A DNA stretch of 64,000 nt from Propionivibrio soli (GTDB lineage: Bacteria; Pseudomonadota; Gammaproteobacteria; Burkholderiales; Rhodocyclaceae), in NCBI RefSeq assembly GCF_025770765.1, contig NZ_JANZKY010000001.1, forward strand, positions 62,001-126,000. Reading direction: 5' to 3'. The position numbers were made by a program, and so were the translations under genes. The first letter of the stretch is position 1. Each line of letters opens with the position of its first letter. Shown here piece after piece: positions 12,549 through 33,837 of the stretch. The notes below the pieces were generated by a model. The model was not told where the DNA came from. It saw nothing but the letters and a program-made list of their open reading frames with translations, and searched no databases.

Positions 12549-13060
12549 TGCTGTTCGCCCTCCATATTCAGCAACCGCTCGGCTTCACCCTGTTCCTCGA
12601 GGGACAATGGAGCAGCCACCACCTGCCTGTTCCGGCGCCGCAAATAAGCGACTAGGGCCGCTAATCCGCCGAGCAGCAGCACTACCGGCCCAAACCAGAG
12701 AAGAATTGTCGTCAGCTTGAGCGGCGGCCGATACAACACGAAATCGCCGTATCGGCTGACCATGAAGTCGAGAATTTCCCGATCGCTGCGTCCCTGCCCG
12801 ATCATCGTCCGGATTTCGCGGCGCAAGTCGTTAGCAAGTTCCGCATGCGACCCGGCCAGCGACTCGTTCTGGCAGACCAGGCAACGCAGTTCGGAGGCGA
12901 TGGCCACCAACCGCTTTTCGACGGCCTCGTCGGCAGCGAGCGGTGCGGCCTCCTTGGCGCGCGCCGGAGCGAAAACGGCCAGGCTCGCCATCACGGCAAA
13001 AAGCGCCAACCACCAGGAGTATCGATCGGCGCGCGACGACCACCAGACGAATGGGGTCAT
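12545..13060 (-). CDS. ccmH: Cytochrome c maturation thiol-reductase CcmH
   Basis: A 171-residue periplasm-facing, membrane-anchored protein. The N-terminal signal/anchor is followed by the conserved LRCLVCQNESLAGS motif, whose CxxC thiols handle the reduced apocytochrome CxxCH cysteines, and later by SRYGDFVLYRPP. A second membrane helix lies near 130. It overlaps both neighbours by 4 bp (ccmG upstream, ccmI downstream). Confidence 0.94.
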   Translation of the reverse strand: MTPFVWWSSRADRYSWWLALFAVMASLAVFAPARAKEAAPLAADEAVEKRLVAIASELRCLVCQNESLAGSHAELANDLRREIRTMIGQGRSDREILDFMVSRYGDFVLYRPPLKLTTILLWFGPVVLLLGGLAALVAYLRRRNRQVVAAPLSLEEQGEAERLLNMEGEQQ

Positions 13061-13641
13061 TTGTTGAGCTCCGCGATGAGCGGCAGGATCTTGCCCGAGA
13101 AAACGTCCGGTGTGATCGGTCCGGTGTGCTTCATCCGAATCAAGCCGGACTTGTCGATGACATATGTTTCGGGTACGCCATAGACGCCGTAGTCGATGCC
13201 AACGCGACCGTTGAGGTCAAGCGCGGAAAGCGCATACGGGTTGCCGTGTTCACGCAGCCAGGCGTTGGCGCGCTGCAAGGCAAGCCGTCGCTCGCCCTCC
13301 TCGCCCAGTTTGTCGGCATCGATCGCGCCGTCCCCGCTCACCTCCTTGTAGTTGAGGCCAATCAAGGTAATCGCGGGATTCTTCGCCATCTCGACGAGAA
13401 CCGGGTGTTCCTGGCGGCACGACACGCACCAGCTCGCCCACACGTTGAGCAACCACACTTTGCCGCGCATTTCCTGCGGCGAAAAACTCTTTTCCGGGGC
13501 ATCGACGCGGGCCAGCGTGAACACGGGGGCCGGTTTGCCGACCAGCGGCGAAGGCACGTCGCGGGGATTGAGCCCCAGCCCAACCGCAAGCAGGATAACC
13601 AAGGCAACAAAGCCAACTAGAGGCCAAAGGAAACGGTTCAT
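13057..13641 (-). CDS. ccmG: Thiol:disulfide interchange protein CcmG/DsbE
   Basis: A 194-residue TlpA-like thioredoxin fold tethered by an N-terminal helix (about 5-24). Active site WCVSC lies in VWASWCVSCRQEHP (about residue 77), replacing the WCxPxC pattern of many CcmG proteins with WCVSC. The second conserved feature GVYGVPETYVID contains the cis-proline. It keeps apocytochrome or CcmH thiols reduced. The gene starts 3 bp after ccmF. Confidence 0.94.
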   Translation of the reverse strand: MNRFLWPLVGFVALVILLAVGLGLNPRDVPSPLVGKPAPVFTLARVDAPEKSFSPQEMRGKVWLLNVWASWCVSCRQEHPVLVEMAKNPAITLIGLNYKEVSGDGAIDADKLGEEGERRLALQRANAWLREHGNPYALSALDLNGRVGIDYGVYGVPETYVIDKSGLIRMKHTGPITPDVFSGKILPLIAELNK

Positions 13642-13644
13642 GTC

Positions 13645-15639
13645 TTACGCCTTCGCTTGGTCCGCGACGCCGGCAACCGGTGCCGCCGCGCGGGCTGCCA
13701 GACGGTAGCGCCGATCGGAGAGGGCCAGGATGCCGCCAAGGGCCATCAGTACGCAGCCGCCCCAGATCCAGTCCACGAACGGCTTGTGATAAACGCGTAC
13801 GGCCCAAGGGCCGTCGGGCCGCGCCCGATCGATCGGCTCGCCGAGCGAAACGTACACATCGCGCAGGAATCCGGTGTCGATCGCCGCCTCGGTCATCGGC
13901 ATCGCCGAGGAAACGTAGCTTCGTTTCTCCGGATGCAATACGCGCAGCACGCGGCCCGAGCGCTGCAACTCGACGTCCCCGACCAGGGCCGTGTAGTTCG
14001 GCCCCTCCTCGGTGCGTACGCCGCCGAAGCGGAACGTGTATCCGCCGACCTCGACCGTATCGCCGATGTCCATCCGCACGTCCTTCTCGGCTTGGTAACC
14101 GCTGACCAAGGCCACGCCGACAACGAAAACCGCGACGCCGATGTGGGCCAGGTGCATGCCGAGAAAGCTCCTCGGCTGTTGGCGACAAGCCGCCATGAAC
14201 GGGCGGCCCGCCCGTGTCGACTGCACACGGACGACGAAGTTGAGACCGGCGGTAGCTACGATCCATACGGCGAGTACGAGGCTGAGCGCAACGAGTGGCT
14301 TCCACTCGCCCATCAGCAATGGCGCGGCACCGCCGACTATGGCAGCCGAAACGAACGCCCAGCGCAGCGTCCGCGACAACTCGGCAATACTGGCGTTTTT
14401 CCAGCGAGCGAATGGAGCGACACCGATCAGGAACAGAACCGGGATCATCAGCGGCGCAAACACCGAATCAAAGTACGGCGGACCGACGGAGAGTTTGCCG
14501 AGACCAAGCGCATCGATGACGAGCGGGTAGAGCGTACCGAGCAATACCGACGCGCAAGCGACGACGAGCAACACGTTATTGGTGAGCAGGAACGACTCGC
14601 GCGAGACGAGTCCGAAGCGCCCTCCCAGGCCGACCTTGGGCGCCCGCCAGGCGAACAGCACAAGTGAGCTGCCGATGACGACGACGAGGAAAGCGAGGAT
14701 GAAGATGCCGCGCCGCGGATCGGTCGCAAACGCATGCACCGACGTCAACACCCCGGAACGGACGAGGAACGTACCGAGCAGCGACAGCGAGAACGCAGAG
14801 ATCGCCAGCAGCACCGTCCAGTTCTTGAACGAGCCGCGCTTTTCGGTCACTGCCAGCGAGTGCACAAGCGCCGTGCCTAGCAGCCAGGGCATGAACGACG
14901 CGTTCTCGACCGGATCCCAGAACCACCAGCCGCCCCATCCCAGTTCGTAGTACGCCCACCAGGAGCCGAGCGCAATGCCGAAGGTCAGGAAGACCCACGC
15001 GGCCGTGGTCCACGGCCGGGACCAGCGCGCCCAGGCGGCGTCGAGTTGCCCTGAGAGCAGCGCCGACACGGCGAAAGCGTAGGCCACCGAGAAACCGACG
15101 TAGCCCATGTACAGCATCGGCGGATGAATGACGAGGCCCGGATCCTGCAACAGCGGATTGAGGTCGCGCCCTTCTTCCGCCCCGGGCAGCAAGCGGTCGA
15201 ACGGATTCGACGTCACCAGAATGAAGAGCAGAAATCCTGCAGTGACCAGCCCGAGGACGCCGAGAACCCGCGCCACCATCGCGTCCGGCAATTGGCGCGA
15301 GAACGCGGCCACCGCCAGCATCCACAACGCGAGCATCATCACCCAGAGCAGCAACGACCCTTCGTGGCCGCCCCAGACGGCCGCCACGCGATACGGCAGC
15401 GGCAACAACGAATTCGAGTGTTGAGCGACGTAAAGCACCGAGAAATCGTTTTGCACGAACGACGCCGTCAAACATCCGAAAGCCACGGCAATCAACAACG
15501 TCAATGCGCTGGCCGCCGGGCGTGCCAGCGCAATCCAGCGCAACTGCCGTCGATGTGCGCCAACGAGTGGCAGCACGCCTTGCACGACGGCAACACAGAA
15601 GGCGACGATCAGGGCGAATTGACCCAGTTCAGGAAGCAT
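13645..15639 (-). CDS. ccmF: Haem lyase subunit CcmF
   Basis: A 664-residue polytopic inner-membrane protein (about 15 helices). The tryptophan-rich haem-handling motif WGGWWFWDPVENASFMPW occurs near residue 235, flanked by conserved periplasmic histidines. CcmF receives haem from holo-CcmE and ligates it to apocytochrome with CcmH and CcmI. Length is normal for the family. It begins 60 bp after ccmE. Confidence 0.97.
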   Translation of the reverse strand: MLPELGQFALIVAFCVAVVQGVLPLVGAHRRQLRWIALARPAASALTLLIAVAFGCLTASFVQNDFSVLYVAQHSNSLLPLPYRVAAVWGGHEGSLLLWVMMLALWMLAVAAFSRQLPDAMVARVLGVLGLVTAGFLLFILVTSNPFDRLLPGAEEGRDLNPLLQDPGLVIHPPMLYMGYVGFSVAYAFAVSALLSGQLDAAWARWSRPWTTAAWVFLTFGIALGSWWAYYELGWGGWWFWDPVENASFMPWLLGTALVHSLAVTEKRGSFKNWTVLLAISAFSLSLLGTFLVRSGVLTSVHAFATDPRRGIFILAFLVVVIGSSLVLFAWRAPKVGLGGRFGLVSRESFLLTNNVLLVVACASVLLGTLYPLVIDALGLGKLSVGPPYFDSVFAPLMIPVLFLIGVAPFARWKNASIAELSRTLRWAFVSAAIVGGAAPLLMGEWKPLVALSLVLAVWIVATAGLNFVVRVQSTRAGRPFMAACRQQPRSFLGMHLAHIGVAVFVVGVALVSGYQAEKDVRMDIGDTVEVGGYTFRFGGVRTEEGPNYTALVGDVELQRSGRVLRVLHPEKRSYVSSAMPMTEAAIDTGFLRDVYVSLGEPIDRARPDGPWAVRVYHKPFVDWIWGGCVLMALGGILALSDRRYRLAARAAAPVAGVADQAKA

Positions 15640-15699
15640 CGCGAGACCTCATGCGATTGAAGTTTTCGTCGCGCGCCGACTGCGCCATGCCAAGCCCGT

Positions 15700-16179
15700 T
15701 CACTGACGCACCGTCTTTGCGGTGGCTTCGACGGCCGCCTTGTTGGCCAAAGCGCGTGCATGCGCGTCCCCCACCGCTTTCGCGGCTTCCGGCGGCATGT
15801 AATTCTCGTCGTGCTTGGCCAGCACCTCGCTGGCGACGAAAACGCCGTCATCGCCCAGGCGACCCTGAGCAACGGCCCCTTTCCCCTCCTTGAACAGGTC
15901 GGGGAGGATGCCTTTGTAGGCGACGGTCATGTCCTTCTCCGTATCGGTGACGACGAAACGCATCGTCACGCCGTCGACTTCACGGCGCAGCGAGCCTTCC
16001 TTCACCATGCCGCCGATGCGAAATGGCTTGCCCTTAGGCGCTTCACCGGCCGCTACCTGCGTCGGCGAGAAGAAGAAGACAAGATTGCTTTGAAACGCAT
16101 TGAGGACGAGAGCGGCGATAACGCCCAATACGGCGAGTCCCCCCAGGATCAACGCCATGCGCTTGTGCCGTGTTTTCAC
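15700..16179 (-). CDS. ccmE: Haem chaperone CcmE
   Basis: A 159-residue membrane-anchored beta-barrel haem chaperone. The N-terminal helix is about 8-28, and the conserved [13 protein letters not shown] contains H123, the residue that binds haem covalently. The start codon is GTG at 16177-16179, overlapping the ccmD stop as GTGA. It carries haem from CcmC to CcmF. Confidence 0.95.
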
Positions 16180-16448
16180 GCTTTACTTTCGGAATTGCTT
16201 GGTGTGCCCGGCGTGCTTGGAACGCCGAGTCGGTTCTGAGTTTGTCGGACGGTCGCCCGCCCGCGCTCGGATTTTTCGGCGCGGAACTGCCGCCGCAGGC
16301 GAGCCAGTAACTGCCTGTGACCTTTCACAATTAGAAGAGGTTCCGCGACCATCGCCACCGCCATGACGATGAACGAGCCCCATACATACACGCCGTGCGT
16401 GCCCATGGCGATGAATTCGGCGAAGCTATTCCAGTACATCCAGTCCAT
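16176..16448 (-). CDS. ccmD: Haem exporter accessory protein CcmD
   Basis: A small 90-residue protein starting [16 protein letters not shown], with one membrane helix (about 18-41) and a basic cytoplasmic tail; the start has the tryptophan/aromatic-rich character typical of CcmD. CcmD stabilises the CcmABC complex and is needed to release holo-CcmE. It lies 2 bp after ccmC and overlaps ccmE by 4 bp. The tail after about residue 60 is longer than in most CcmD proteins and low in complexity. Confidence 0.88.
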
Positions 16449-16450
16449 GT

Positions 16451-17212
16451 TCACGCCTCCGCCGCTTCGCCGCGCGCGATCTCGGCACGCACCCATTCGG
16501 TGTTTCGCTCGCGTTCCAGCATGATCGTGCGCACGCGCATCAGCGCCACGGCAATGGCGTACATCCAGCACGCGAGAGCACAGAACAGCATTCCCCACAA
16601 CATCGTCGTCGCCATCGACGGCGACTTCGTCAGGCTCACCGACGATCCCTGGTGCAACGTGTTCCACCACTTGACCGAGAAATAGATGATCGGAACGTTT
16701 ACCACACCGACCAAGGCCAGGACGGCGCTCGCGTTGTCGGCTCGGCGCGGATCGTCGATGGCCGAGCGCAGTGCGATGAAACCGACGTAGAGAAAAAGCA
16801 GGATTAGTTCTGAGGTCAGCCGCGCGTCCCAGACCCACCACGTGCCCCACATCGGCTTGCCCCACAGGGCACCGGTCCATAGCGAGAGGAAGGCGAACAG
16901 CGCCCCCGTGGGCGCGAGTGCCTGCGCCATCATTCCCGACAGGCGGAAGTTGAAGGCCAGCCCGAGCCCGGCCCAAAAGGCCATCACAACATAGATGAAC
17001 ATCGACATCCACGAGGCCGGGACATGCAGAAAGATGATGCGGTAGCCCTCGCCTTGTTGCGCGTCGGTCGGCGCGACGAGAAACCCGATGTAGAGCCCGA
17101 TCACGCCGAACACCGCCGCGAGTACCCAGAACCAAGGAATCATGCGGCCCGCCAGCGGATAGAACGCCTGTGGGCTTGCAAATCGATACCAGTTGATCAG
17201 CCGGTTGCTCAC
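16451..17212 (-). CDS. ccmC: Haem exporter/handling protein CcmC
   Basis: A 253-residue six-helix membrane protein with the haem-handling motif WGTWWVWDARLTSEL (about residue 125). It delivers haem to CcmE. GTG start (17210-17212) giving MSNRLINWYRF. It follows ccmB after a 125-bp gap in which I see no gene. Confidence 0.96.
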   Translation of the reverse strand: MSNRLINWYRFASPQAFYPLAGRMIPWFWVLAAVFGVIGLYIGFLVAPTDAQQGEGYRIIFLHVPASWMSMFIYVVMAFWAGLGLAFNFRLSGMMAQALAPTGALFAFLSLWTGALWGKPMWGTWWVWDARLTSELILLFLYVGFIALRSAIDDPRRADNASAVLALVGVVNVPIIYFSVKWWNTLHQGSSVSLTKSPSMATTMLWGMLFCALACWMYAIAVALMRVRTIMLERERNTEWVRAEIARGEAAEA

Positions 17213-17337
17213 GTCGTTACTCTCCAGTCACTGCGCGGTCGACCGCGTGCGCAGCCCGCCCGTCGCGCAGGGGTCGAAACATGCCCTAGCTCCCCGGGGC
17301 AGCAGGAGCATCCTTTTCAGGCGGTCGGTCGCGGCAC

Positions 17338-18006
17338 TCATTCCAAAGCGATTCGCAAGGCCGCAGCCGTCGGCCACGGTGCGAAAAACACGCCGCCGAG
17401 CGCGAGAGCGCCGAGCAGCGAAAGATGGGCGTCCGAAGCCATTCCCGTCGCCACGGCGTCCACGGCGCCGGCGCCAAATATCAGCACGGGAATATACAGC
17501 GGCAGCACCAGCAGCGACAGCAGCACGCCGCTCCCGCGCACACCAAGCGTCAAGGCCGCGCCGATGGCGCCGATTCCGGACAGTGCCGGCGTGCCGATGA
17601 GGAGTGACAGCGTGAGCGTCTTCAAACCATCGGCTGGCAGATCGAACTGAAGCCCGAGCACCGGAGCAAGCAAGGCGAGCGGCAATCCGCACACCAGCCA
17701 ATGCGCGACCACCTTACCGATCACCGTCAAGCCCAGCGGTTGCGGCGCGAGCAGCAATTGTTCGAGCGTACCGTCGCGCAGATCATCGGCAAATAGCCGC
17801 GGCAACGAGAGCATCGTCGCCAACAACGCGGCCACCCACAGAACGCCGGGAGCAAGCGTGCGTAGCAGCTCGGGCTGCGGCCCGACACCGAGCGGAAACA
17901 GGCTGACGACGATGATAAAGAAGAACAGGGCCGAAACGACGTCGGAGCGCCGCCGCATGGCGAGACGCAAATCGCGGGCGACGATGGCGCGGACGAAAGC
18001 GATCAT
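17338..18006 (-). CDS. ccmB: Haem exporter permease CcmB
   Basis: A 222-residue six-helix membrane protein. The DLRDGTLEQLLLAPQP loop near residue 75 and the length are typical of CcmB. It pairs with CcmA in an ABC-type complex that uses ATP to release haem-loaded CcmE. It overlaps ccmA by 4 bp. Confidence 0.95.
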   Translation of the reverse strand: MIAFVRAIVARDLRLAMRRRSDVVSALFFFIIVVSLFPLGVGPQPELLRTLAPGVLWVAALLATMLSLPRLFADDLRDGTLEQLLLAPQPLGLTVIGKVVAHWLVCGLPLALLAPVLGLQFDLPADGLKTLTLSLLIGTPALSGIGAIGAALTLGVRGSGVLLSLLVLPLYIPVLIFGAGAVDAVATGMASDAHLSLLGALALGGVFFAPWPTAAALRIALE

Positions 18007-18656
18007 GTCGTCGCGCTCCCGCCAGTCGACAGATCACCCAGAACCAACTCATGCGTGGCGCCGGCCGCGATCGGTACCGCCTGATGCGTCGTCAGAACGG
18101 CGAGACCGCCGCGCTGCAGGTGCGCACCGATCAATCCGGCGACAAACTCGACGGCCGCCACGTCGAGGGCGACGAAAGGCTCATCGAGCAGCCAGAGGAG
18201 CCGGCGCTCGCCGACGAGGCGCGCCAGCGCCACGCGTCGCTTCTGCCCTTGCGAGAGGTAGCGGCAGGCGAGGTCGGCGCGTCCAGCGAGGCCGAGCTGT
18301 TCGAGCGCGTCGATGGCCGCATCCTCGTCAAGCGTTTCGCCGACGAGCCGGGCGGTGGCCAGCAGGTTCTCGAGCGGCGTGAGGTCCTCCTTGATGGCAT
18401 TCGGATGCCCCAGATAACAGAGCTCGCGCCGATAGTCGTCGGCCTGGCCCCGAATCGGCGCGCCGCGCCAGCGGACTTCGCCCGCCATCGGCGTCGATAG
18501 CCCGCAAAGCATACGCAGCAACGTCGTCTTGCCAGTCCCGTTGCCGCCCTGCAGGTACAGAAGCTCACCCGCACCGAGGCGAAAACCGACGTGCGCGAAC
18601 AGGCGCCGTTCGCCCCGCACACATTCGAGATCGATTGCTTCCAGCAAGCCGTCCAT
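18003..18656 (-). CDS. ccmA: Haem exporter ATP-binding protein CcmA
   Basis: A 217-residue ABC ATPase: Walker A GGNGTGKTT near residue 37, signature LSQGQKRR (the CcmA form of LSGGQ), Walker B LLWLLDEPF. ATP hydrolysis drives release of holo-CcmE rather than haem export itself. First gene of the nine-gene ccm operon (A-B-C-D-E-F-G-H-I), all on the minus strand. This operon can mature the multihaem cytochrome encoded 5 kb away. Confidence 0.96.
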   Translation of the reverse strand: MDGLLEAIDLECVRGERRLFAHVGFRLGAGELLYLQGGNGTGKTTLLRMLCGLSTPMAGEVRWRGAPIRGQADDYRRELCYLGHPNAIKEDLTPLENLLATARLVGETLDEDAAIDALEQLGLAGRADLACRYLSQGQKRRVALARLVGERRLLWLLDEPFVALDVAAVEFVAGLIGAHLQRGGLAVLTTHQAVPIAAGATHELVLGDLSTGGSATT

Positions 18657-18734: not shown

Positions 18735-20099
18735 TCATTCATTCTCCCCGAGATCACCGCCAGTGTTGCGGATTCCAAGCTTCTTCATCTTCTGCCAGAG
18801 GTTCTTGCGGCTGATCTTCAGCGCCGCCGCGGTCTCCCCGATCCGGTTCTGATGATGATGCAGCGCCCCTTCGATATGCCGCCGTTCGCACGCCTGCAAG
18901 TATTCGTTGAGCGAGTCTTCTTCGCTGCCGGATTCGTCTTCCACCTCGTCAGCCCCGAATTCATCGCCGAAGATCAGTTCGCCGGTCAACGTCGCTTCAC
19001 CTGACAGGATGCAGGCACGCTCCAGCATGTGCTTGAGCTCGCGTACGTTGCCAGGCCACGGGTATTCGAACAACGCCTTCTCGGCCGAGTGCGACAGGTT
19101 GCGTCGATCGCCATGCTCAGCCGCCCACGCGTCGAGCATGCGGCGTGCAAGCCAGAGGATGTCCTCTTTGCGCTCGTGGAGCGGCGGAATATGCAGGTGC
19201 ACGACATGGACGCGGTAGTAGAGGTCTTCGCGGAAACGCCCCTCCTCGACCATCTTCTTGAGATCCTGATGTGTCGCACAAACAAGCCGGATCGAGACCG
19301 CGACCGACGCCTCCGAGCCGACACGAGTGACGCGGCGCTCTTGGATCGCCCGCAACAACTTGACCTGCATGATCGGCGACATTTCACCGATTTCGTCGAG
19401 AAAGAGCGTCCCGCCATCGGCCTGCTCGAATACGCCCTTCTTGTCGCGCACCGCGCCCGTGAAGGCGCCCTTGACGTAGCCGAAAAGCTCGGCTTCGAGC
19501 AGCGTCTCGGTCAGGGCCCCACAGTTCACGGCAACAAAGGGCTGCTGCCCGCCAGGATCGCCCAGCCTGTGTAGTGCGCGGGCCACCATCTCCTTGCCGA
19601 CGCCCGACTCGCCGGTGATCAGCACGGAACCCGAAGCTTGCGCCAAGCGCGGCAGCATGGCTTCGATCGAGCGCATGCTGCCCGAGATGCCGAGCGTCGG
19701 CTCGCCGGTCGCCGGCGGCCGGGCGCGGGTACACAATTCTCGGATCGTCTGCAGCAGGGCGTGGATGTCGAGCGGCTTGGTCAGATAGTCGTGGGCACCG
19801 AGCTTGAGGAGGCGCACGGCACGGTCCACCGTGCCGTAACCGGTGACAAAAACGAAGGGCGGCAGCGTTCGACCGGCCTCCTTCAACTGCACGAAGAGAT
19901 CTTCGCCGCTGACATCAGGCAACCGGATGTCGCAGATCGCCACGTGGTAGCGCTTGTGCGTCAACGCCTGCATCGCAGGATGCCCAGCCATATGCCAGTC
20001 GCAAGCGAATCCTTCGAGCGCGAAGCGTTCGACCAGGGCCTCGCCCATGATCGGGTCGTCCTCGATCAAGCAGATCCGGTACGGAACAGAATCAGTCAT
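18735..20099 (-). CDS. NtrC-family sigma-54-dependent response regulator
   Basis: A 454-residue activator with three domains. Receiver (about 8-120) with phospho-acceptor D57 in CDIRLPDVSG. AAA+ domain (about 145-385) with Walker A GESGVGKE, the sigma-54 contact loop GAFTGA, and GGTLFLDEIGEM. C-terminal Fis-type helix-turn-helix (about 410-450, ending ISRKNLWQKMKKLGI). Start chosen at the ATG at 20097-20099 (MTDSVPYRICLIEDD), because upstream codons precede the receiver and lie within the kinase gene; it overlaps the kinase stop by 8 bp. Likely target: the -24/-12 promoter of the divergent cytochrome operon at 23124. Confidence 0.95.
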   Translation of the reverse strand: MTDSVPYRICLIEDDPIMGEALVERFALEGFACDWHMAGHPAMQALTHKRYHVAICDIRLPDVSGEDLFVQLKEAGRTLPPFVFVTGYGTVDRAVRLLKLGAHDYLTKPLDIHALLQTIRELCTRARPPATGEPTLGISGSMRSIEAMLPRLAQASGSVLITGESGVGKEMVARALHRLGDPGGQQPFVAVNCGALTETLLEAELFGYVKGAFTGAVRDKKGVFEQADGGTLFLDEIGEMSPIMQVKLLRAIQERRVTRVGSEASVAVSIRLVCATHQDLKKMVEEGRFREDLYYRVHVVHLHIPPLHERKEDILWLARRMLDAWAAEHGDRRNLSHSAEKALFEYPWPGNVRELKHMLERACILSGEATLTGELIFGDEFGADEVEDESGSEEDSLNEYLQACERRHIEGALHHHQNRIGETAAALKISRKNLWQKMKKLGIRNTGGDLGENE

Positions 20100-21534
20100 G
20101 CGGCACCTCGAACGGAATGGTGACGGCGACGCGCAGGCGATCGCCGTCTCGCGTGGCGGATATCTTTCCGCCGAGTTGATGGACAATCTGGTACGTCACC
20201 CAGAGACCGAGGCCATGGCCTCCGTCGCTGAGCGAGAAGAACGGTTCGAAGAGATGCGGAATGGCGTTCTCGTCCGGAATCCGACCACCGTTGCTGACGC
20301 CGACCTGCAGCCGCCCCTCCCCATTCGTCACCTGGAAAACGACGCTCTGTTCCGACTCCGAGGCTTCGATCGCGTTCAGCAGGAGGTTGATGAGGATCTG
20401 GCGCACCAAAGTGGCCGGCAGCGCGGCCTCACCGCGGACCGCGTTTCTCGATTCGAGGCGCAAGGCTTTTTTCTCGGCAGGTGGCGCCACGAGCATCAGG
20501 ACGTCTTCGACGTCCTTGGCCGCGAAGTTGCGGCTCTTCACCTTCGCTTCGACGAGCAGTGCGCCCACCGTATCCTTGATCTGCGTCAGGCCACGTTCGA
20601 TCAGATCGATCGTCTTCATCGTGCGCGCGTCGACGTCACCATGCAGCTTCAACGTATCGATCGCAGTCAACATACCGCCGAGCGGGTTGTTGATTTCGTG
20701 CGCCATGGCGGCTGCCAGCCGCCCAAGCGCAGCGAGCCGTTCGGATTGGACGACTTGCTTCTCCATTGCCTCGTGCGAGCGCAATTCGGCGAGCATCTGG
20801 TTGAAGACGGTGAACAACTGGCCGAGTTCGTCGCCGTAGTTGTAGAGCTCGGGATTGATGTTGGGTGGCAGGCGTTTACCGACCTCACTCATGCGTTCCG
20901 TCAGGTGTGCCAAGGGCATCGCCAGACGGCGCCCCCAATACCAGCTGATCGGCAGCAGCAAACCAAGCACCGCGAGCCCTGCGAGCAGGCCCTGCCAGGC
21001 AATGGCGTAGAAGCGGGGACGGAAGTCGTTTTTTGCCACAGTGATGATGAGCGTTCCGAAGTGCACGCGGTCGTCGGCGATCGGAGTCAAGACATAGAGG
21101 TGCCCGGAATCGGACATATCAACGGTTTCGCCGCGCGTCGTTTTGATCTTTTCAGCGAGCGCGACGAAATCGGCGCCAAGATCGCGCAAGGGTGTAAGCA
21201 CCGGCGCGCGCTTCGGTTCCGAAGCGACGAAGATGTTCAGTGCGTTGTCGACGACGAACAAGGCCTCGGCCTTCACAGATTGGGCCCCCGGTGCGCGCCC
21301 TGCCGGCGCACGCACCGTCTCGAAGGCATGCCAGACGTCGTCGTGCAACATATCCTGAAGCAGGCTGGGCGCCATCGCGCGCCCCAACGTTTCGGCATTT
21401 ACGCGCAGATCGTCGCGAAGCGCGCCGTACGCCGCGAGCATCAATGCTGTTGCCACGCCAAGCGCCGAAACGATGATCAACGCGGCACCGAGCAGCGGCA
21501 GTTTGACCCGAAAACTGAGGTCGAGCAGTTTCAC
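20092..21534 (-). CDS. Membrane sensor histidine kinase
   Basis: A 480-residue kinase. Two membrane helices (about 12-35 and 180-198) enclose a roughly 145-residue periplasmic sensor domain. A HAMP-like linker follows, then the dimerisation domain with HEINNPLGG (phosphorylated H279), then the catalytic domain with N-box LLLNAIEASE and G-box GHGLGLWV. Start GTG at 21532-21534 overlaps the binding-protein stop as GTGA. It is expected to sense the liganded periplasmic binding protein and phosphorylate the NtrC-like regulator downstream. Confidence 0.93.
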   Translation of the reverse strand: MKLLDLSFRVKLPLLGAALIIVSALGVATALMLAAYGALRDDLRVNAETLGRAMAPSLLQDMLHDDVWHAFETVRAPAGRAPGAQSVKAEALFVVDNALNIFVASEPKRAPVLTPLRDLGADFVALAEKIKTTRGETVDMSDSGHLYVLTPIADDRVHFGTLIITVAKNDFRPRFYAIAWQGLLAGLAVLGLLLPISWYWGRRLAMPLAHLTERMSEVGKRLPPNINPELYNYGDELGQLFTVFNQMLAELRSHEAMEKQVVQSERLAALGRLAAAMAHEINNPLGGMLTAIDTLKLHGDVDARTMKTIDLIERGLTQIKDTVGALLVEAKVKSRNFAAKDVEDVLMLVAPPAEKKALRLESRNAVRGEAALPATLVRQILINLLLNAIEASESEQSVVFQVTNGEGRLQVGVSNGGRIPDENAIPHLFEPFFSLSDGGHGLGLWVTYQIVHQLGGKISATRDGDRLRVAVTIPFEVPHD

Positions 21535-22442
21535 AAGTCCCCCACCGCATAGGGAAGCCGCGTCACACTTTCGTAGAGCTTCGGACTGCCCGGGATGAAG
21601 CCGTCGATGTTCAATTGCCGCAGCAGGCTGCGGCCTTCCTCGTCGCCGCTCATGCCGGTCAATACCGCGCGCATTGCCGCCGCCTCTTTCTTGTCCACCC
21701 CGGCGCTGGCCACGATCGGCGGGAAACCGTATTCCTCGGAGCGCGTCACGATCCGTGTGCGCGCGGTCAATTCGGGTTGAATACGAGCCACCGTGTCCCA
21801 GACGAAACTGTCGATGGAACCGCCATCCGCAAGCCCTTCGGCAACGGCAACGATGACCTTGCGGTGCGACGACGTGAAAAAGGTCTTGCGGAAGAACCGG
21901 TTCTCGTCTTTGCCCGCCTGGCGCAAAACGAAGCGGGGAACGACGTAGCCGGTGTTTGAGTAGAGATCGGCGTAGGCGAATACCTTGCCTTCGAGATCGA
22001 GCAGCGATTGCGTCTGCGTGTCCGACGCCGGCACGATGAGGTAGGCACGGTAATAGGGGCGCCCTTGATACAAGGGAACCGCCAACAGACGCGCGTAGCG
22101 TCTCCGTTCGAGATAGGCGTACGGATACGTGGACACCCAGGCGAAATCCAGCCGCCGTTGGCGAACGAGATCAATCGTTTCCCGATAGCTGTTGCGCGAG
22201 ACGAATTCGACGTGGCGTTGCAGCTTGCGCTCCAAGTAGGCCCGCCAGTCGTCGAGCACGCCGTACTGATCGTGGACGATCGCCGGCGTGATGCCGAAGC
22301 GGATCGGCTGATCCGGAACATCGATCTTCTCTTCGGCCACGGCTGGCACCGCAAGAAAAGCGAAGATCACAAGCCACGCTTCGAGGATGTGCGCAAATGC
22401 GCGGCCATGCCGTACTTGCTTTGAACGCCATGTCGCGAACAT
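21531..22442 (-). CDS. PhnD-type periplasmic binding protein, sensory
   Basis: A 303-residue exported protein. The signal helix (about 20-38, ending AVPAVAEE) is followed by a PhnD/phosphonate-binding type II fold: RFGITPAIV, FVSRNSYRETIDLVRQRRLD, DFAWVSTYPY, and GKVFAYADLYSNTGYVVPR. The ATG at 22440-22442 is the last start before the signal peptide; frames further upstream run through the palindrome region. No permease or ATPase accompanies it, and its stop overlaps the kinase start, so its job is ligand sensing, as in AioX or TorT-type systems. Ligand unknown: PhnD relatives bind oxyanions, phosphonates and other anions. Confidence 0.88.
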   Translation of the reverse strand: MFATWRSKQVRHGRAFAHILEAWLVIFAFLAVPAVAEEKIDVPDQPIRFGITPAIVHDQYGVLDDWRAYLERKLQRHVEFVSRNSYRETIDLVRQRRLDFAWVSTYPYAYLERRRYARLLAVPLYQGRPYYRAYLIVPASDTQTQSLLDLEGKVFAYADLYSNTGYVVPRFVLRQAGKDENRFFRKTFFTSSHRKVIVAVAEGLADGGSIDSFVWDTVARIQPELTARTRIVTRSEEYGFPPIVASAGVDKKEAAAMRAVLTGMSGDEEGRSLLRQLNIDGFIPGSPKLYESVTRLPYAVGDL

Positions 22443-22606
22443 CTCCACACACCTGCGGCAACGTCCAGCGGCCACGTTGTGCGACGTCCCCCAACCGGCT
22501 GGATGACGCCGAAAAGCGCCCGCCACGAAGGCCTGGATTTCTAGATCTGAAGTCGGGCTCATCGTCGGCTCCGAGATTCTGCGTTGGGGGACTGCAAGCC
22601 CGGGTT

Positions 22607-22624
22607 GGTTACCGGCCGGTAACC
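22607..22624. promoter_or_regulatory. 18-bp perfect palindrome, candidate enhancer site 1
   Basis: GGTTACCGGCCGGTAACC is identical to its own reverse complement. It lies 165 bp upstream of the binding-protein start and about 540 bp upstream of the predicted cytochrome transcription start. A half-site CGGTAAC follows at 22658-22664. NtrC-family regulators bind such dyads as dimers, so it may serve autoregulation. Confidence 0.6.
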
Positions 22625-22966
22625 TTATTGTGCCCATTTTCACCCGATGTGGCGAAACGGTAACAACCCGCGCACTCGCGTGTTTGAGCCAGCCACCCGC
22701 TACTGCCTGATTCCCCATGAATCTCGTTCTTTCATCTGGACATGGCCGCCCAACTCCAGCGAGGCGCCTTGCGAGCCTTGGCAGGCTCATATAAGCCGTA
22801 GCTGCCCTGCCACGACATGGAAGGCAGCGCAATTTCCATGCCGCTTCCCTTTTACCGCGGCGTGTTTAGAGAGCTGATAACTTGGCCCGAGCCCCCAGCC
22901 AAGGTCTCGATTCTGATCTGCGTCGCGAAGGGACGCCGTTGTCTTTGACCCATAACGTACACCAGT

Positions 22967-22982
22967 GTTACCCACCGGTAAC
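22967..22982. promoter_or_regulatory. Candidate enhancer site 2 for the sigma-54 promoter
   Basis: GTTACCCACCGGTAAC matches the core of the 22607 palindrome at 14 of 16 positions, with both arms intact. Its centre is about 160 bp upstream of the -24 element, within the normal range for upstream activator sites of NtrC-family proteins. Confidence 0.6.
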
Positions 22983-23123
22983 GCGGTGGCGCGCGGACCT
23001 TGGCCCGTCCAGTCGCGCCAGCCGTCATCGACGAACGGCACATAGAAACACATCTATTGGAAACAATGCGTTAGGCGGATTCCGCGAGAGGAATCCACTC
23101 ACCCCTCGCCGCTTTCCAGCTAA

Positions 23124-23139
23124 TGGTATGGATGTTGCG
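23124..23139 (+). promoter_or_regulatory. Sigma-54 (-24/-12) promoter of the cytochrome operon
   Basis: TGGTATG-GATG-TTGCG compares with the consensus TGGCACG-N4-TTGCW: the invariant GG and GC are present with exactly 10 bp between them, and 9 of 12 defined positions match. The start of transcription would be near 23150, leaving a leader of about 40 bp with a GGGGGA ribosome site before the ATG at 23191. Confidence 0.75.
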
Positions 23140-23190
23140 GAGGGTTGCCCATCAAGAAACCGGTCTCAACCGGCGTCGTGTGGGGGGACA

Positions 23191-24195
23191 ATGCGGGCGT
23201 TTCATAACACCGTTCTCAGGTTCGCCGCATGCATCGCGATGATGCTGCTCGCTTCGTTCGTGCCTGCCGCTGCGTTGGCTCAGGAAAAGACCAGCGCGTT
23301 GATGACACCCGAACTGCTCGAAAAAGTCCGGCGTGCTAATAACGAGTGTTTCGCCTGCCACTCGGAAGAGGGTGTGAAAAAACCACCGCGCGCAGACCTC
23401 GATATCACCAAGCTGCGCCCCTTGGCTCACGACCCGAAGGTTTTCAACGGATCGAACCACGGGTTGATGGAATGCACGCAATGCCATGGCCAAGGCTACA
23501 CCGAGTTCCCGCATGCCGCGGATGCGCGTGAGTCGATCAGCGCCTGCGAGGAGTGCCACGCCGCCAAGGTGCTGCGCATCGAGAAGCAGCTCGATGCGTC
23601 CGTCCATGCCACGCGGGTGAAGGATAAGTTCACCTGCAGCACATGCCACGACCCTCATGTCGACTTGATTGCCTCCACGCTGATCGACCCGCGCAAGATC
23701 GTCGCTCAAGACAATCAGCATTGCCTCGATTGCCACGACTCCGAATTGGAGTTCGCGAAGTTTGCTCCCGATGACGAGCAAACCTCCACCAAGAAGAAGC
23801 GCCCGGACATCGACAAGATCCACGAGTGGCTGCCCAACACCCGCGTGCACTGGCAAGCGGTGCGCTGCGTCGAGTGCCACACGCCGGCCACCAAGACCCT
23901 CTCGCACGAGATCGTGAACAAGGAGAAAGCCGAGCGTCAGTGCCTCACCTGCCATAGCGCCAGCAGCTCATTGACCACGCGGCTCTATCGGCACCTGGCC
24001 AAGGAAGAGCAGGAACGGCTGGGTTTCGCCAACAGCGTGATCCTGGCGAGCTCGTACGTGCTGGGTGCGACGCGCCATCCCTGGCTCGACCGTCTGATCG
24101 TCGGCGCCTTCGCCGCCATGCTCCTTGGACTTCTGATCCATGGCCTCGCCCGGATCGTCGCCCGTATCGTGCGCAGGAAGAAGAATCATGGCTGA
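23191..24195 (+). CDS. Membrane-anchored heptaheme cytochrome c
   Basis: A 334-residue exported protein with a signal peptide (about 1-30, ending ALAQ) and seven CxxCH haem c motifs: C53FACH, C95TQCH, C119EECH, C149STCH, C178LDCH, C226VECH and C251LTCH. A C-terminal membrane helix (about 303-322) is followed by a basic cytoplasmic tail (RRKKNHG). Extra histidines between motifs could provide bis-His ligation. ATG at 23191 has a GGGGGA site; the longer in-frame reading upstream crosses the promoter. It presumably relays electrons between the cytochrome b encoded next and periplasmic partners. It is not a standard NapC/NirT, which is N-terminally anchored and has four or five haems. Confidence 0.92.
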   Translation: MRAFHNTVLRFAACIAMMLLASFVPAAALAQEKTSALMTPELLEKVRRANNECFACHSEEGVKKPPRADLDITKLRPLAHDPKVFNGSNHGLMECTQCHGQGYTEFPHAADARESISACEECHAAKVLRIEKQLDASVHATRVKDKFTCSTCHDPHVDLIASTLIDPRKIVAQDNQHCLDCHDSELEFAKFAPDDEQTSTKKKRPDIDKIHEWLPNTRVHWQAVRCVECHTPATKTLSHEIVNKEKAERQCLTCHSASSSLTTRLYRHLAKEEQERLGFANSVILASSYVLGATRHPWLDRLIVGAFAAMLLGLLIHGLARIVARIVRRKKNHG

Positions 24196-24802
24196 GCGTG
24201 AGTACCTGATTTCCCCCTGGATCCGCATCTGGCATTGGACCAACGCGGCGCTGATCCTCGTCCTCGGCACGACGGGCATCAGCCTCCACTTCGCCGACCC
24301 GAATTTGCCCTTCGTCGAGTTCTCGCTGGCGGTCCGCGTCCACAACATCGCCGGGGTCACGCTCGCCGCCGCGTATGCTTTCTTCGTAATCGCCAACATC
24401 GTGACTGGCAACTGGTGGCAGTTCGTACCCAAACCGCCCGGCATCGTGCCGCGTCTGGTGGCGCAGGCACGCTGGTACGCCTTCGGCATTTTCCGCGGCG
24501 ACCCGCACCCGCACTCCCCGACAAAAGACGAGCACTTCAACGTCCTGCAGGCGTTGACCTACTGGAGCGTCATGTACCTGTTGATGCCACTCATTATTCT
24601 CAGCGGGCTCATCTATCTCTATCCGCAATTCGCGCCCGACAAGATGTTCGGGTTCGACGGACTGCTGCCTATCGCCATGCTGCACTACCTGTCCGCGGCA
24701 GCCGTGCTGCTCTTCATGCTCTCGCACATCTATCTCGGCACGACGGGCAAGACGGTCGGGGCCATGTTCAAGATGATGTTCACCGGTTGGCACGAACACT
24801 AA
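24188..24802 (+). CDS. Cytochrome b561/formate-dehydrogenase-gamma-like membrane subunit
   Basis: A 204-residue four-helix membrane protein. Histidines in WIRIWHWTN, VRVHNIAG, LHYLSAA and LSHIYLG are suitably placed for two b haems, the pattern of the di-haem cytochrome b subunits of formate dehydrogenase and thiosulfate reductase. Such subunits connect the quinone pool to periplasmic electron carriers. ATG at 24188 overlaps the cytochrome c stop by 8 bp, so the two are tightly coupled. The loop between helices 2 and 3 contains a HPHSPTKDEH segment of unknown role. Confidence 0.9.
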   Translation: MAEREYLISPWIRIWHWTNAALILVLGTTGISLHFADPNLPFVEFSLAVRVHNIAGVTLAAAYAFFVIANIVTGNWWQFVPKPPGIVPRLVAQARWYAFGIFRGDPHPHSPTKDEHFNVLQALTYWSVMYLLMPLIILSGLIYLYPQFAPDKMFGFDGLLPIAMLHYLSAAAVLLFMLSHIYLGTTGKTVGAMFKMMFTGWHEH

Positions 24803-24849
24803 CAAGCCACGTGCCGGCTTCCATGTCTTTTAACGCAGGAGGGAACCAA

Positions 24850-25920
24850 ATGATCAGCATCCGGAATTCAATCGCATTGGCCGTCGGCGCCGCACTGGCA
24901 TGTTCCGGTGCGCTGGCACAGGACAAGAAGGAAAAGCCGAAGGCCTTCAAGCCCATCCCTGTCGTAGCCGTCAAGGCGGCAAGCGTGCCCAAACTCGACG
25001 GCGTAGCGGACGATGCGGTATGGAAAGACGCTCCCGTAACGAACGTCAAGGCCGTCAAAGGCGCCAACTTCAAGGACAACCAGGGGAATACCCAGGCAAC
25101 GATTCAGGCCGTCTACACCGCCGATACGTTATTCCTGCTCATCACCTACGAAGACCCGACGCTTTCGGTACGCCGCAGTCCGTTCGTCAAGAAAGCGGAC
25201 GGCACCTGGGAAAAACTCAAGGACCCGGACGACAAGGGTGGCGACAACAATAAATTCTATGAAGACAAGATGGCCCTCATCTGGAATATCGACGACTCGA
25301 TCTTCGGCTTCAATGAGCGCTTTTCGTGCCAGGCGGCTTGCCATGCTGGCGAACCCGGCAAGCCGTATGGCAACAAATACACGGGCGATGACGGGGAGAT
25401 GGGCGACATCTGGCACATGAAATACGTGCGCACGGGCGCCATCGGTCAGGTTGACGACCAGTACCTCGACAATACGCCGTTCGACCCAAAGACAGCGCCG
25501 GAGGCCGGCCGCAAATCGGACCCGAAGACGGGCGGCGGGTATGACGATATCAAGCTCGTGAACGGCAAGCCCGAGTTCATGAGCAAGGACGGCAAGCCGG
25601 CAAACGCGGGAGGGACGTATTGGCTAAAAGCCGAGGACAAGGTGCCGTTCGACGACTCCAAATTCAAGGCTGGCGACGAAGTGGCATCGATCATCATTGC
25701 CCCCTTCACCGGAGACCGCGGCGAGATTGCCACTGGGGCAAAATGGGCCAATGGCAAGTGGACGATCGAGATATCCCGCAAGCTGGTGACAGGTTCGAAA
25801 TTCGACGTCAACTTCAAGGATCTGGACAAGACCTATGGCTTCGGCATGGCGCTCTTTGACAACGCGCAGGTTCGCCACGCGTACGTTCAGGAACCCCTGC
25901 ATCTGCAGTTCAAGAAGTAA
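24850..25920 (+). CDS. Periplasmic ethylbenzene-dehydrogenase-type haem-binding protein
   Basis: A 356-residue exported protein with a signal peptide ending ALAQ (residue 24) and an EB_dh/DOMON-like domain: LDGVADDAVWKDAP (49-62), MALIWNIDDS (141-150), and GDIWHMKYVR (185-194), which carries candidate haem ligands H189 and M190. Unusually it contains C160-QAA-C164-H165, a CX3CH sequence rather than CXXCH. In known relatives (EbdC, SerC) the domain holds haem b and passes electrons to or from a molybdenum enzyme; no such enzyme is encoded here. ATG at 24850 has GGAGGG 7 bp upstream. Third gene of the operon, 47 bp after the cytochrome b gene. Confidence 0.85.
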   Translation: MISIRNSIALAVGAALACSGALAQDKKEKPKAFKPIPVVAVKAASVPKLDGVADDAVWKDAPVTNVKAVKGANFKDNQGNTQATIQAVYTADTLFLLITYEDPTLSVRRSPFVKKADGTWEKLKDPDDKGGDNNKFYEDKMALIWNIDDSIFGFNERFSCQAACHAGEPGKPYGNKYTGDDGEMGDIWHMKYVRTGAIGQVDDQYLDNTPFDPKTAPEAGRKSDPKTGGGYDDIKLVNGKPEFMSKDGKPANAGGTYWLKAEDKVPFDDSKFKAGDEVASIIIAPFTGDRGEIATGAKWANGKWTIEISRKLVTGSKFDVNFKDLDKTYGFGMALFDNAQVRHAYVQEPLHLQFKK

Positions 25921-32898: not shown

Positions 32899-33837
32899 TC
32901 AGTTCTTGCTCATGTACTGGCTGAGGTTGGCGGGAGTGACGAGTTCGAACGGAATCCAGACCATCGACGGAACCTTCTCGCCCTTCATCAGTTTCAGTGC
33001 CGTATCAACCGCGCCCTTGCCCTGGCCGGCGGCGTTCTGGAACACCGTGACCTTCATATCGCCCGCCTTCATCGAGGCCAACGCGTCCTGCGTCGCGTCG
33101 ATACCGGCGACGATCGTCTTGTCGAGCAGCTTCGAAGCTTTCAGCGCTTGGACAGCACCAAGAGCCATTTCGTCGTTGTTCGAGACGACGGCGTCGAACT
33201 TCATGCCAGCGCTGATCCAGTTCGTCATCAGGTCATTACCGTCGGTGCGCTGCCACTTGGCCGTACGCTTGTCGAGAATCTTGATACCGTTGCATTCCTT
33301 CGTGGCAACGACGTCTTCGACGTCCTGCGTACGCTGACGCGCGGCCTGGTTCGCGAGGTCACCCATCATGACCAGGATGTTCCCCTTGCCGCCCATCAAC
33401 CGGCAGACTTCCTTCATTTGCAGCGTGCCCGAATCGACTTCATTCGATCCGACATACGCGACACCGGCCGGCAGCGACTTGTCGGCAGGCTGACGGTTCA
33501 CATACACCAGCGGAATCTTGGCTTCGGAAGCGAGCCGGGTCATCTTCGGCGTTGCATCCGTATCGACGGCGTTAACGATGATCGCATCGACCTTCTGTGC
33601 GATGAAGTTCTGAATCTGGTTCAGCTGCCGACCGACGTCGGCTTGCGCGTCTTCGAACTGCAGATCGACGCCCTTCTGCGTACCGGCGTATGTCTTCATG
33701 CCGTTACGAAGCACGGTCAGGAAGTTGTCATCGAACGAGGACATCGTGACGCCGATCTTGGCCGCCGAGGCGGGCATGCTGGCGAGAGAGAGGGCGACCA
33801 AAGCGGATGCAGCAAGCGTTTTGACAAAAGGCTTCAT
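32899..33837 (-). CDS. Periplasmic sugar/inositol-binding protein (IbpA/RbsB-like)
   Basis: A 312-residue periplasmic binding protein of the Peripla_BP_4 family with a signal peptide ending SASA/SAAK (about residue 25). The mature start IGVTMSSFDDNFLTVLRNGM is typical for ribose/inositol binders, followed by FIAQKVDAIIVNAVD and AGIDATQDALASM. First gene of the minus-strand operon, which continues through the ATPase, permease, dehydrogenase, regulator and IolC. The inositol assignment rests on context. Confidence 0.9.
   Translation of the reverse strand: MKPFVKTLAASALVALSLASMPASAAKIGVTMSSFDDNFLTVLRNGMKTYAGTQKGVDLQFEDAQADVGRQLNQIQNFIAQKVDAIIVNAVDTDATPKMTRLASEAKIPLVYVNRQPADKSLPAGVAYVGSNEVDSGTLQMKEVCRLMGGKGNILVMMGDLANQAARQRTQDVEDVVATKECNGIKILDKRTAKWQRTDGNDLMTNWISAGMKFDAVVSNNDEMALGAVQALKASKLLDKTIVAGIDATQDALASMKAGDMKVTVFQNAAGQGKGAVDTALKLMKGEKVPSMVWIPFELVTPANLSQYMSKN

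Follow-up and report, generated by a model that had tools for sequence, protein, structure and literature searches.

The closest described relatives of the sensory genes studied here are the AioXSR, ArxXSR, and ArrXSR systems, whose AioX-type binding proteins figure only as arsenic sensors in the portions of the literature covered (PMC5908839, PMC5335332, PMC6549141). In those portions, the pocket of AioX is given as seven residues, including the arsenite-binding Cys106 (Badilla et al. 2018, PMC5908839), and the regulator AioR is assigned the consensus GTTN10AAC, with a footprinted 16-bp palindrome (PMC5335332). On the electron-transfer side, the part of PMC6295460 that we consulted describes CbcL, MtrH, and MtoC as single polypeptides that join an N-terminal multihaem c-type part, with 3 to 23 CxxCH motifs, to a b-type membrane part mostly of six helices, and that occur in bacteria which reduce Fe(III) or oxidise Fe(II). 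Here, we analyzed a 64-kb stretch of the genome of Propionivibrio soli (contig NZ_JANZKY010000001.1, positions 62,001 to 126,000; hereafter the window, in which all coordinates of the locus are given), where a sensory operon of the AioXSR type lies divergent to a triad of genes encoding a heptahaem c-type cytochrome, a cytochrome b, and a protein with an EB_dh domain. Subunits with an EB_dh domain are classically parts of molybdenum enzymes. Our preferred reading, which we hold with moderate confidence, is that this module forms a periplasmic electron pathway, linked to quinones and switched by the sensor, which does not serve arsenite and works without a molybdenum partner.

A sequence-only reading of this DNA had proposed six genes in two divergent operons, with GTGA and 8-bp overlaps, and all six were recovered intact and in place. 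On the minus strand, the gene for the binding protein (21531..22562; Pfam Phosphonate-bd 4.8e-58; an alternative ATG start lies, in our reading, at 22442) overlaps by 4 bp (GTGA, 21531-21534) the gene of an AioS-like sensor histidine kinase (20092..21534; 480 residues, GTG start; Pfam HAMP-HisKA-HATPase_c), which in turn overlaps by 8 bp (20092-20099) the one encoding an AioR-like, NtrC-type sigma-54 response regulator (18735..20099; 454 residues; Pfam Response_reg, Sigma54_activat at 3e-66, and HTH_8). On the plus strand, the heptahaem cytochrome (23191..24195; 334 residues, seven CxxCH, N-terminal signal-like and C-terminal hydrophobic stretches) is followed, with an overlap of 8 bp, by a cytochrome b561-type membrane subunit (24188..24802; 204 residues; Ni_hydr_CYTB 1.7e-23) and then by the EB_dh-domain protein (24850..25920; 356 residues; PF09459 9.8e-39; signal-like N-terminus), the three products being those that had been named from the sequence.

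The likeness to AioX-AioS-AioR drawn by the same reading stands as far as architecture is concerned: a binding protein with the PhnD fold, belonging to the AioX subfamily, is followed by a kinase and then by an NtrC-type regulator, and AioX is the top relative of the binding protein among solved structures (1.6e-58, with ArrX at 1.7e-35). It stops at the arsenite-binding residue. At the positions of AioX residues 88, 106, 131, 161, 163, 192, and 210, the window protein has Y, S, Y, S, T, H, and D, respectively. Five of the six positions other than 106 are identical (Tyr88, Tyr131, Ser161, His192, and Asp210), Ser163 is replaced by Thr, and the arsenite ligand Cys106 is replaced by Ser, as it also is in G776, a genome of the same genus (genomes and loci are cited by G and L handles). 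Since the arsenite-binding cysteine is absent, the specificity of AioX should not be transferred to this sensor. One might still suppose that the system responds to arsenic, the Ser106 protein binding arsenate- or phosphate-like anions and the triad acting in arsenate metabolism; the otherwise largely kept pocket would fit, as would ArrX, which binds arsenate and phosphate (PMC5908839, in the part consulted). We consider this very unlikely, since ArrX itself retains the cysteine in the pocket alignment, and so do all 67 sensors of the family that face a molybdenum enzyme.

These 67 come from a survey of 297 genomes of one family, where 60 genomes encode at least one AioX-family protein, in 81 places. 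Together with G742, and with three duplicate rows dropped, they make 82 sensor loci, for each of which the divergent module was sought up to 9 kb upstream of the sensor gene, the genes of relatives being called with a home-made codon-usage caller. Residue 106 is Cys in 74 loci and Ser in 8. A molybdenum enzyme faces 67 of the former, one has none, and six with less than 5 kb upstream and no enzyme within it were set aside as unscorable, which gives 67/68 scorable Cys106 loci with a molybdenum enzyme, against 0/8 Ser106 loci (Fisher p = 4.8e-10, a value that is overstated because the loci were treated as independent though they are related). Molybdenum enzymes were called with a home-built profile made from three local proteins, which missed AioA, so three loci were scored manually: L166 via Pfam, and L156 and L167 via a matching N-terminal sequence. 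The one scorable Cys106 locus without such an enzyme (L168, at 9414) is not followed by a kinase and regulator of this type. Six of the eight Ser106 loci face MtrA-MtrB genes, where the calls mean likeness to the L007 proteins (23-58%) and the MtrB family models confirmed only L007 and L119; another (L123) faces cytochrome c and YceI genes, and the last is the window. An additional Ser106 locus, before a heptahaem gene in G776 (L179), is counted neither among the 82 loci nor among the proteins of the tree. This tree holds 83 binding proteins, the partial L169 and duplicates being left out, and in it the seven Ser106 proteins, including that of the window, form one clade (support 96/84) among Cys106 proteins.

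The family shows other variations of the sensor. Two Ser106 sensors lying before MtrAB (L124 and L131) have a strongly remodelled pocket, in which Asp replaces Tyr88, Phe replaces Tyr131, Gly replaces Ser163, and Asn replaces His192. Five Cys106 sensors with Ser in place of Asp210 (L103, L105, L108, L109, and L113) all lie beside a distant molybdenum enzyme (5/5) and perhaps represent another specificity class. The solo Cys106 protein of L168 (9357-10112) groups with ArrX in the tree, on long branches; the gene next to it encodes a 1072-residue protein, others follow, and the usual kinase and regulator are absent there.

The region between the two operons contains candidate sites of the kind used by AioR. 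Two exact palindromes of the form GTTACCN4GGTAAC are present: GTTACCGGCCGGTAAC (22608..22623), a candidate regulator site that fits GTTN10AAC, and GTTACCCACCGGTAAC (22967..22982), a candidate shared enhancer. The latter lies between two candidate sigma-54 promoters and could serve both, namely a -24/-12 element for the sensor operon on the minus strand (CGGCATGGAAATTGCG, 22828..22843) and one for the haem operon on the plus strand (TGGTATGGATGTTGCG, 23124..23139), each scoring 32/39. The two palindromes are the only exact ones in the 4.76-Mb genome; when up to one mismatch is allowed, the number expected for the window is 0.02. The pattern recurs across the family: among the 81 loci with upstream stretches of at least 500 bases, GTTACN6GTAAC (at most one mismatch) occurs within the first 700 bp upstream in 70/73 Cys106 and 7/8 Ser106 loci, and the reversed pattern in 0 and 0. 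Sigma-54-like scores of at least 32 on the sensor strand are reached at 7/9 Ser-type loci, where 0.9 would be expected. Scores of at least 34, over the nine Ser106 loci including G776, are found at 7/9 on the haem or conduit side and 5/9 on the sensor side, with about 0.2 expected for each; the plus-strand site of the window, just outside the 700-bp slice, was counted as a miss there. In G776, the layout is the same, with the palindrome GTTACCAATTGGTAAC between two candidate promoters, of which the one for the haem operon, TGGCATGGATATTGCG, scores 35.

The haem-binding motifs of the triad are strictly conserved. All seven CxxCH of the heptahaem cytochrome and five histidines of the cytochrome b (H16, H34, H52, H166, and H180) are invariant in 14/14 aligned proteins, and the CX3CH of the EB_dh protein (C160, C164, and H165) is invariant in 19/19. 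Given this invariance, the EB_dh protein likely carries a covalently bound haem, and the reading as an ordinary haem b subunit was rejected. In a profile comparison, the protein matches subunit C of nitrite oxidoreductase (7b04_C, 1.3e-9), and it scores 20 bits with TIGR03477, whose cut-off is 169.85; the cytochrome b scores 170.9 bits with PRK15006 (thiosulfate reductase cytochrome b), for a cut-off of 204. EB_dh matches were found in 19/395 genomes of the family. The three genes are contiguous on one strand in 10 of these (the window included), the triad is cut by contig ends in 3 (G559, G776, and G456), the EB_dh gene is without the other two nearby in 5, and it is broken in 1. A further contiguous triad occurs in the metagenome-assembled genome (MAG) of an uncultured Rhodospirillaceae (L006). 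Relatives of the heptahaem protein in the contig scan came from a Propionivibrio MAG (76%), an uncultured Rhodospirillaceae MAG (57%), a Rhodocyclaceae reactor MAG (54%), and Candidatus Accumulibacter sp. 66-26 (44%); at 1e-20 this query matched in only 1/399 genomes of the order, the window's own. Spread by plasmids was rejected, as the single plasmid match is 27.6% identical.

The sequence-only reading had treated the six genes as one module, and a genome search for their co-occurrence did find them as neighbours in related genomes. G597 and G672 carry the whole set of six in one place, and G456 does so over a contig break. G776 has the set as far as its contigs reach: the Ser106 sensor and the heptahaem gene are on one contig, the cytochrome b and EB_dh genes followed by hypF are on another, the kinase is cut, and the regulator was not seen in this 75%-complete genome. 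However, the triad lies behind a different kinase and NtrC regulator in seven other genomes (the dCache_3 domain of this kinase was tested in 2/7), so that a fixed six-gene unit has to be rejected. The sensor trio, for its part, faces many other modules across the loci of the family.

The absence of a catalytic partner beside the triad, noted in the same reading, holds for the window but not for four cousins. In G597, G672, and G435, and in G456 with a contig break in between, the genes behind the triad encode an ArrA-like molybdenum enzyme, an iron-sulfur protein resembling ArrB, and a TorD-like chaperone; the families were tested in the G597 copy, with which the others cluster. The ArrA-like enzyme, tested in L030, scores 1012 bits against an ArrA cut-off of 1600 and about 900 bits to the solved ArrA; it is near ArrA without passing as ArrA. 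Close orthologs of this query (66-100%) are present in 6/19 EB_dh genomes (G435, G672, G597, G456, G742, and G539). The four cousins and the likeness to the solved ArrA would agree with the locus being the remnant of an arsenate-respiration island, one that lost its ArrAB-TorD block and left the triad and sensor functionless or with a residual arsenic function. We find this distinctly unlikely. The five genes compared between the window and G776 are 68-80% identical, and their ratio of nonsynonymous to synonymous substitution rates is lowest for EB_dh (0.10) and highest for the binding protein (0.21), a rough estimate with synonymous rates of ~0.9-1.3 and with the regulator not comparable. G776, within its 75% completeness, shares both Ser106 and the absence of the ArrA-like enzyme. 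Finally, six further genomes, with the other sensor, have the triad with no molybdenum enzyme seen beside it (G539 has an ArrA-like enzyme elsewhere, and the contig of G589 ends ~1 kb behind the triad).

Two groups of Cys106 loci are worth recording here. In L098, L111, L117, L118, L121, L134, L136, L139, and L140, an enzyme of the ArrA-like clade (66-74% identical to the L030 protein) lies opposite a Cys106 sensor, and no triad is present; together with that of L030, this clade may represent an arsenate reductase that has gone unrecognised, or else a sister enzyme. In L102, L111, L114, L125-L130, L135-L137, and others, an iron-sulfur gene and then a molybdenum enzyme are divergent to a Cys106 sensor, an arrangement like that of arxB2ABCD (PMC6549141, in the part consulted).

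The heptahaem and cytochrome b genes are found with yet other partners. In L008 the pair follows the gene of a PhsA-like enzyme, and in L007 it adjoins MtrA-MtrB. In G559, of the same genus as the window, MtrA-MtrB has a second heptahaem gene next to it, and in G637 and G742 the neighbour of a heptahaem gene encodes another EB_dh-family protein. Because it adjoins such different partners, the pair looks like an adaptor for several periplasmic or outer-membrane ends. In the Ser106 loci L132 and L133, a single gene of ~650 residues beside MtrA-MtrB combines 9 and 8 CxxCH, respectively, with a b561-type part, whose Pfam score falls short of the cut-off in L132 and only just exceeds it in L133. 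The L132 fusion is likened to CbcL by its build, and its multihaem part matches the window heptahaem protein (hhalign E 9.1e-17, in part driven by the CxxCH motifs). We infer that the two genes of the window would be a split counterpart of a CbcL-type protein.

The classical ties of EB_dh subunits and the PhsA-like and MtrAB neighbours of these related pairs raise the possibility that a partner of the triad, either a molybdenum enzyme or an outer-membrane conduit, is encoded at another place in the genome. The gene content of this genome makes it unlikely. The triad EB_dh gene encodes its sole EB_dh protein. There is no molybdenum enzyme within 9 kb on the divergent side of the sensor, no alpha and beta subunits of a type II dimethyl sulfoxide (DMSO) reductase beside the EB_dh gene, and no ArrA-like ortholog in the genome, whose single match to the ArrA-like query (28%, query positions 55-303, E 2.9e-19) is an assimilatory-nitrate-reductase-like protein. 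Four proteins have PF00384, none of them ArrA-like: one looks like an assimilatory nitrate reductase from its C-terminal cysteine pattern, one in a 1312-residue frame looks like NarG, judged by length alone, the third is a BisC-family S/N-oxide reductase (NCBIfam) with, in our reading, no evident export signal, and the fourth looks like the NuoG type. MtrB was not found in this genome with a protein query that matches G597 (its source), G559, G067, and G610, that is, four of five other genomes, the exception being the 75%-complete G776; this query was used because TIGR03509 was silent in the genome and in the controls alike. The restriction of exact palindromes, the sites searched genome-wide, to the module locus also speaks against a partner at another locus that shares this control; a divergent conduit elsewhere, or regulator sites with mismatches, are possible.

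The absence of the arsenic-gripping residue, together with that of an adjoining molybdenum enzyme, points to a different respiratory substrate. The same-genus G776 supports our preferred reading, as it shares Ser106, the layout of the sites, and the heptahaem gene, and has hypF rather than a molybdenum enzyme after its EB_dh gene. In keeping with the earlier proposal of a quinone-linked conduit switched by a periplasmic signal, we infer a pathway in which a non-arsenite periplasmic ligand would bind the Ser106-type protein, which once loaded would trigger the kinase to phosphorylate the NtrC-type regulator. The latter would bind the GTTACCN4GGTAAC sites and drive the sigma-54 promoter of the haem operon, as well as its own operon in the opposite direction, perhaps reading into the adjacent genes for cytochrome c maturation (ccm). 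Cytochrome b and the heptahaem cytochrome would connect the quinone pool to the periplasm, as the CbcL, MtrH, and MtoC proteins do in one piece, and the pair would pass electrons on to the EB_dh haem protein or receive them from it. This protein would end the chain, in the place occupied by the molybdenum enzyme or MtrAB in cousins. A bolder version, possible but tentative and on balance doubtful, is that residue 106 is a code that separates arsenic-type molybdenum modules (Cys) from molybdenum-free conduits (Ser), and that the Ser106 sensor here controls a self-sufficient chain in which the CX3CH EB_dh protein is terminal for the sensed substrate.

Several observations weigh against our preferred reading. 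As the Ser106 proteins of the tree form one clade, their association with molybdenum-free modules may reflect a single change and its descendants. Within this clade, the branches of L132, L133, L123, and L119 are long, making placements unsure, and the grouping of the window with L132 has a support of only 95/76. L132, the tree neighbour of the window, is also the Ser106 locus that lacks an exact palindrome, and a single palindrome would mean little, since the reversed control pattern itself occurs once in the genome. The promoter-like sites of the window (32/39) are not significant alone, as 27.5% of shuffles reach the top score. The cytochrome b of the window and the b part of the L132 fusion align with an hhalign probability of only 1.5%, and the latter is below the cut-off for Ni_hydr_CYTB. 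Finally, since the triad is accompanied by an ArrA-like enzyme in four cousins, serving such an enzyme may be what it evolved for.

The module is flanked on one side by inositol-catabolism genes and on the other, downstream of the sensor operon and on the same minus strand, by ccmA, B, C, E, and F and dsbE (13057..18656; NCBIfam CcmA, CcmB, CcmC, CcmE, CcmF/NrfE, and DsbE above cut-off), with a gap of 78 bp between the regulator gene and ccmA. Together, these genes encode the apparatus for attaching haem to c-type cytochromes. The place adjoining ccm, whose genes in relatives were named by likeness on reading, holds differing cytochrome modules: the sensor and triad in the window, MtrAB with a heptahaem gene in L181, EB_dh with a heptahaem gene in L185, and MtrAB in L119. 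In this it resembles an exchange site. Rfam gave no match at gathering score in the window, and the one tRNA-like hit of ARAGORN (33139-33216, with a four-base anticodon) is probably false, since it lies within a predicted protein gene.

If true, the one-residue rule would guard against calling Ser106 loci arsenic genes and would help to predict the signals of uncharacterised respiratory operons in the family. It would also offer a direct way forward, since what the binding protein binds should reveal which substrate the pathway uses. A further consequence, if our preferred reading is correct, is that an EB_dh protein and a split multihaem/cytochrome b pair can work without a molybdenum partner, in a type of module that is easily missed. 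Among the titles and opening abstract lines that searches of an open-access library returned, none dealt with Ser106 AioX-family sensors, with their link to MtrAB, or with the triad.

In summary, the locus shares with AioXSR, ArxXSR, and ArrXSR the order of binding protein, kinase, and NtrC-type regulator, with AioX as the nearest solved relative, and has candidate sites matching their GTTN10AAC-type palindrome and sigma-54-like promoter before the divergent operon. It differs from them in the replacement of the arsenite ligand by Ser and in the absence of an adjacent molybdenum enzyme. The block resembling ArrAB, with its TorD-like chaperone, follows the triad in cousins and was not found in the genome of the window. 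The EB_dh domain is common to the gamma subunits of type II DMSO reductases (EbdC and kin) and to NxrC, the profile match to which was given above; the window protein differs from the gamma subunits by its invariant CX3CH, the lack of adjacent alpha and beta subunits, and a score far below the TIGR03477 cut-off. Relative to CbcL, MtrH, and MtoC, which work with MtrAB or MtoAB, the window has two separate genes and an EB_dh protein in a genome where MtrB was not found, whereas the combination of a multihaem c-type part with a b-type membrane part is shared and its seven haem motifs fall within the range of 3 to 23. It is MtrAB together with a fused protein of this very build that two relatives of the window sensor, L132 and L133, face.

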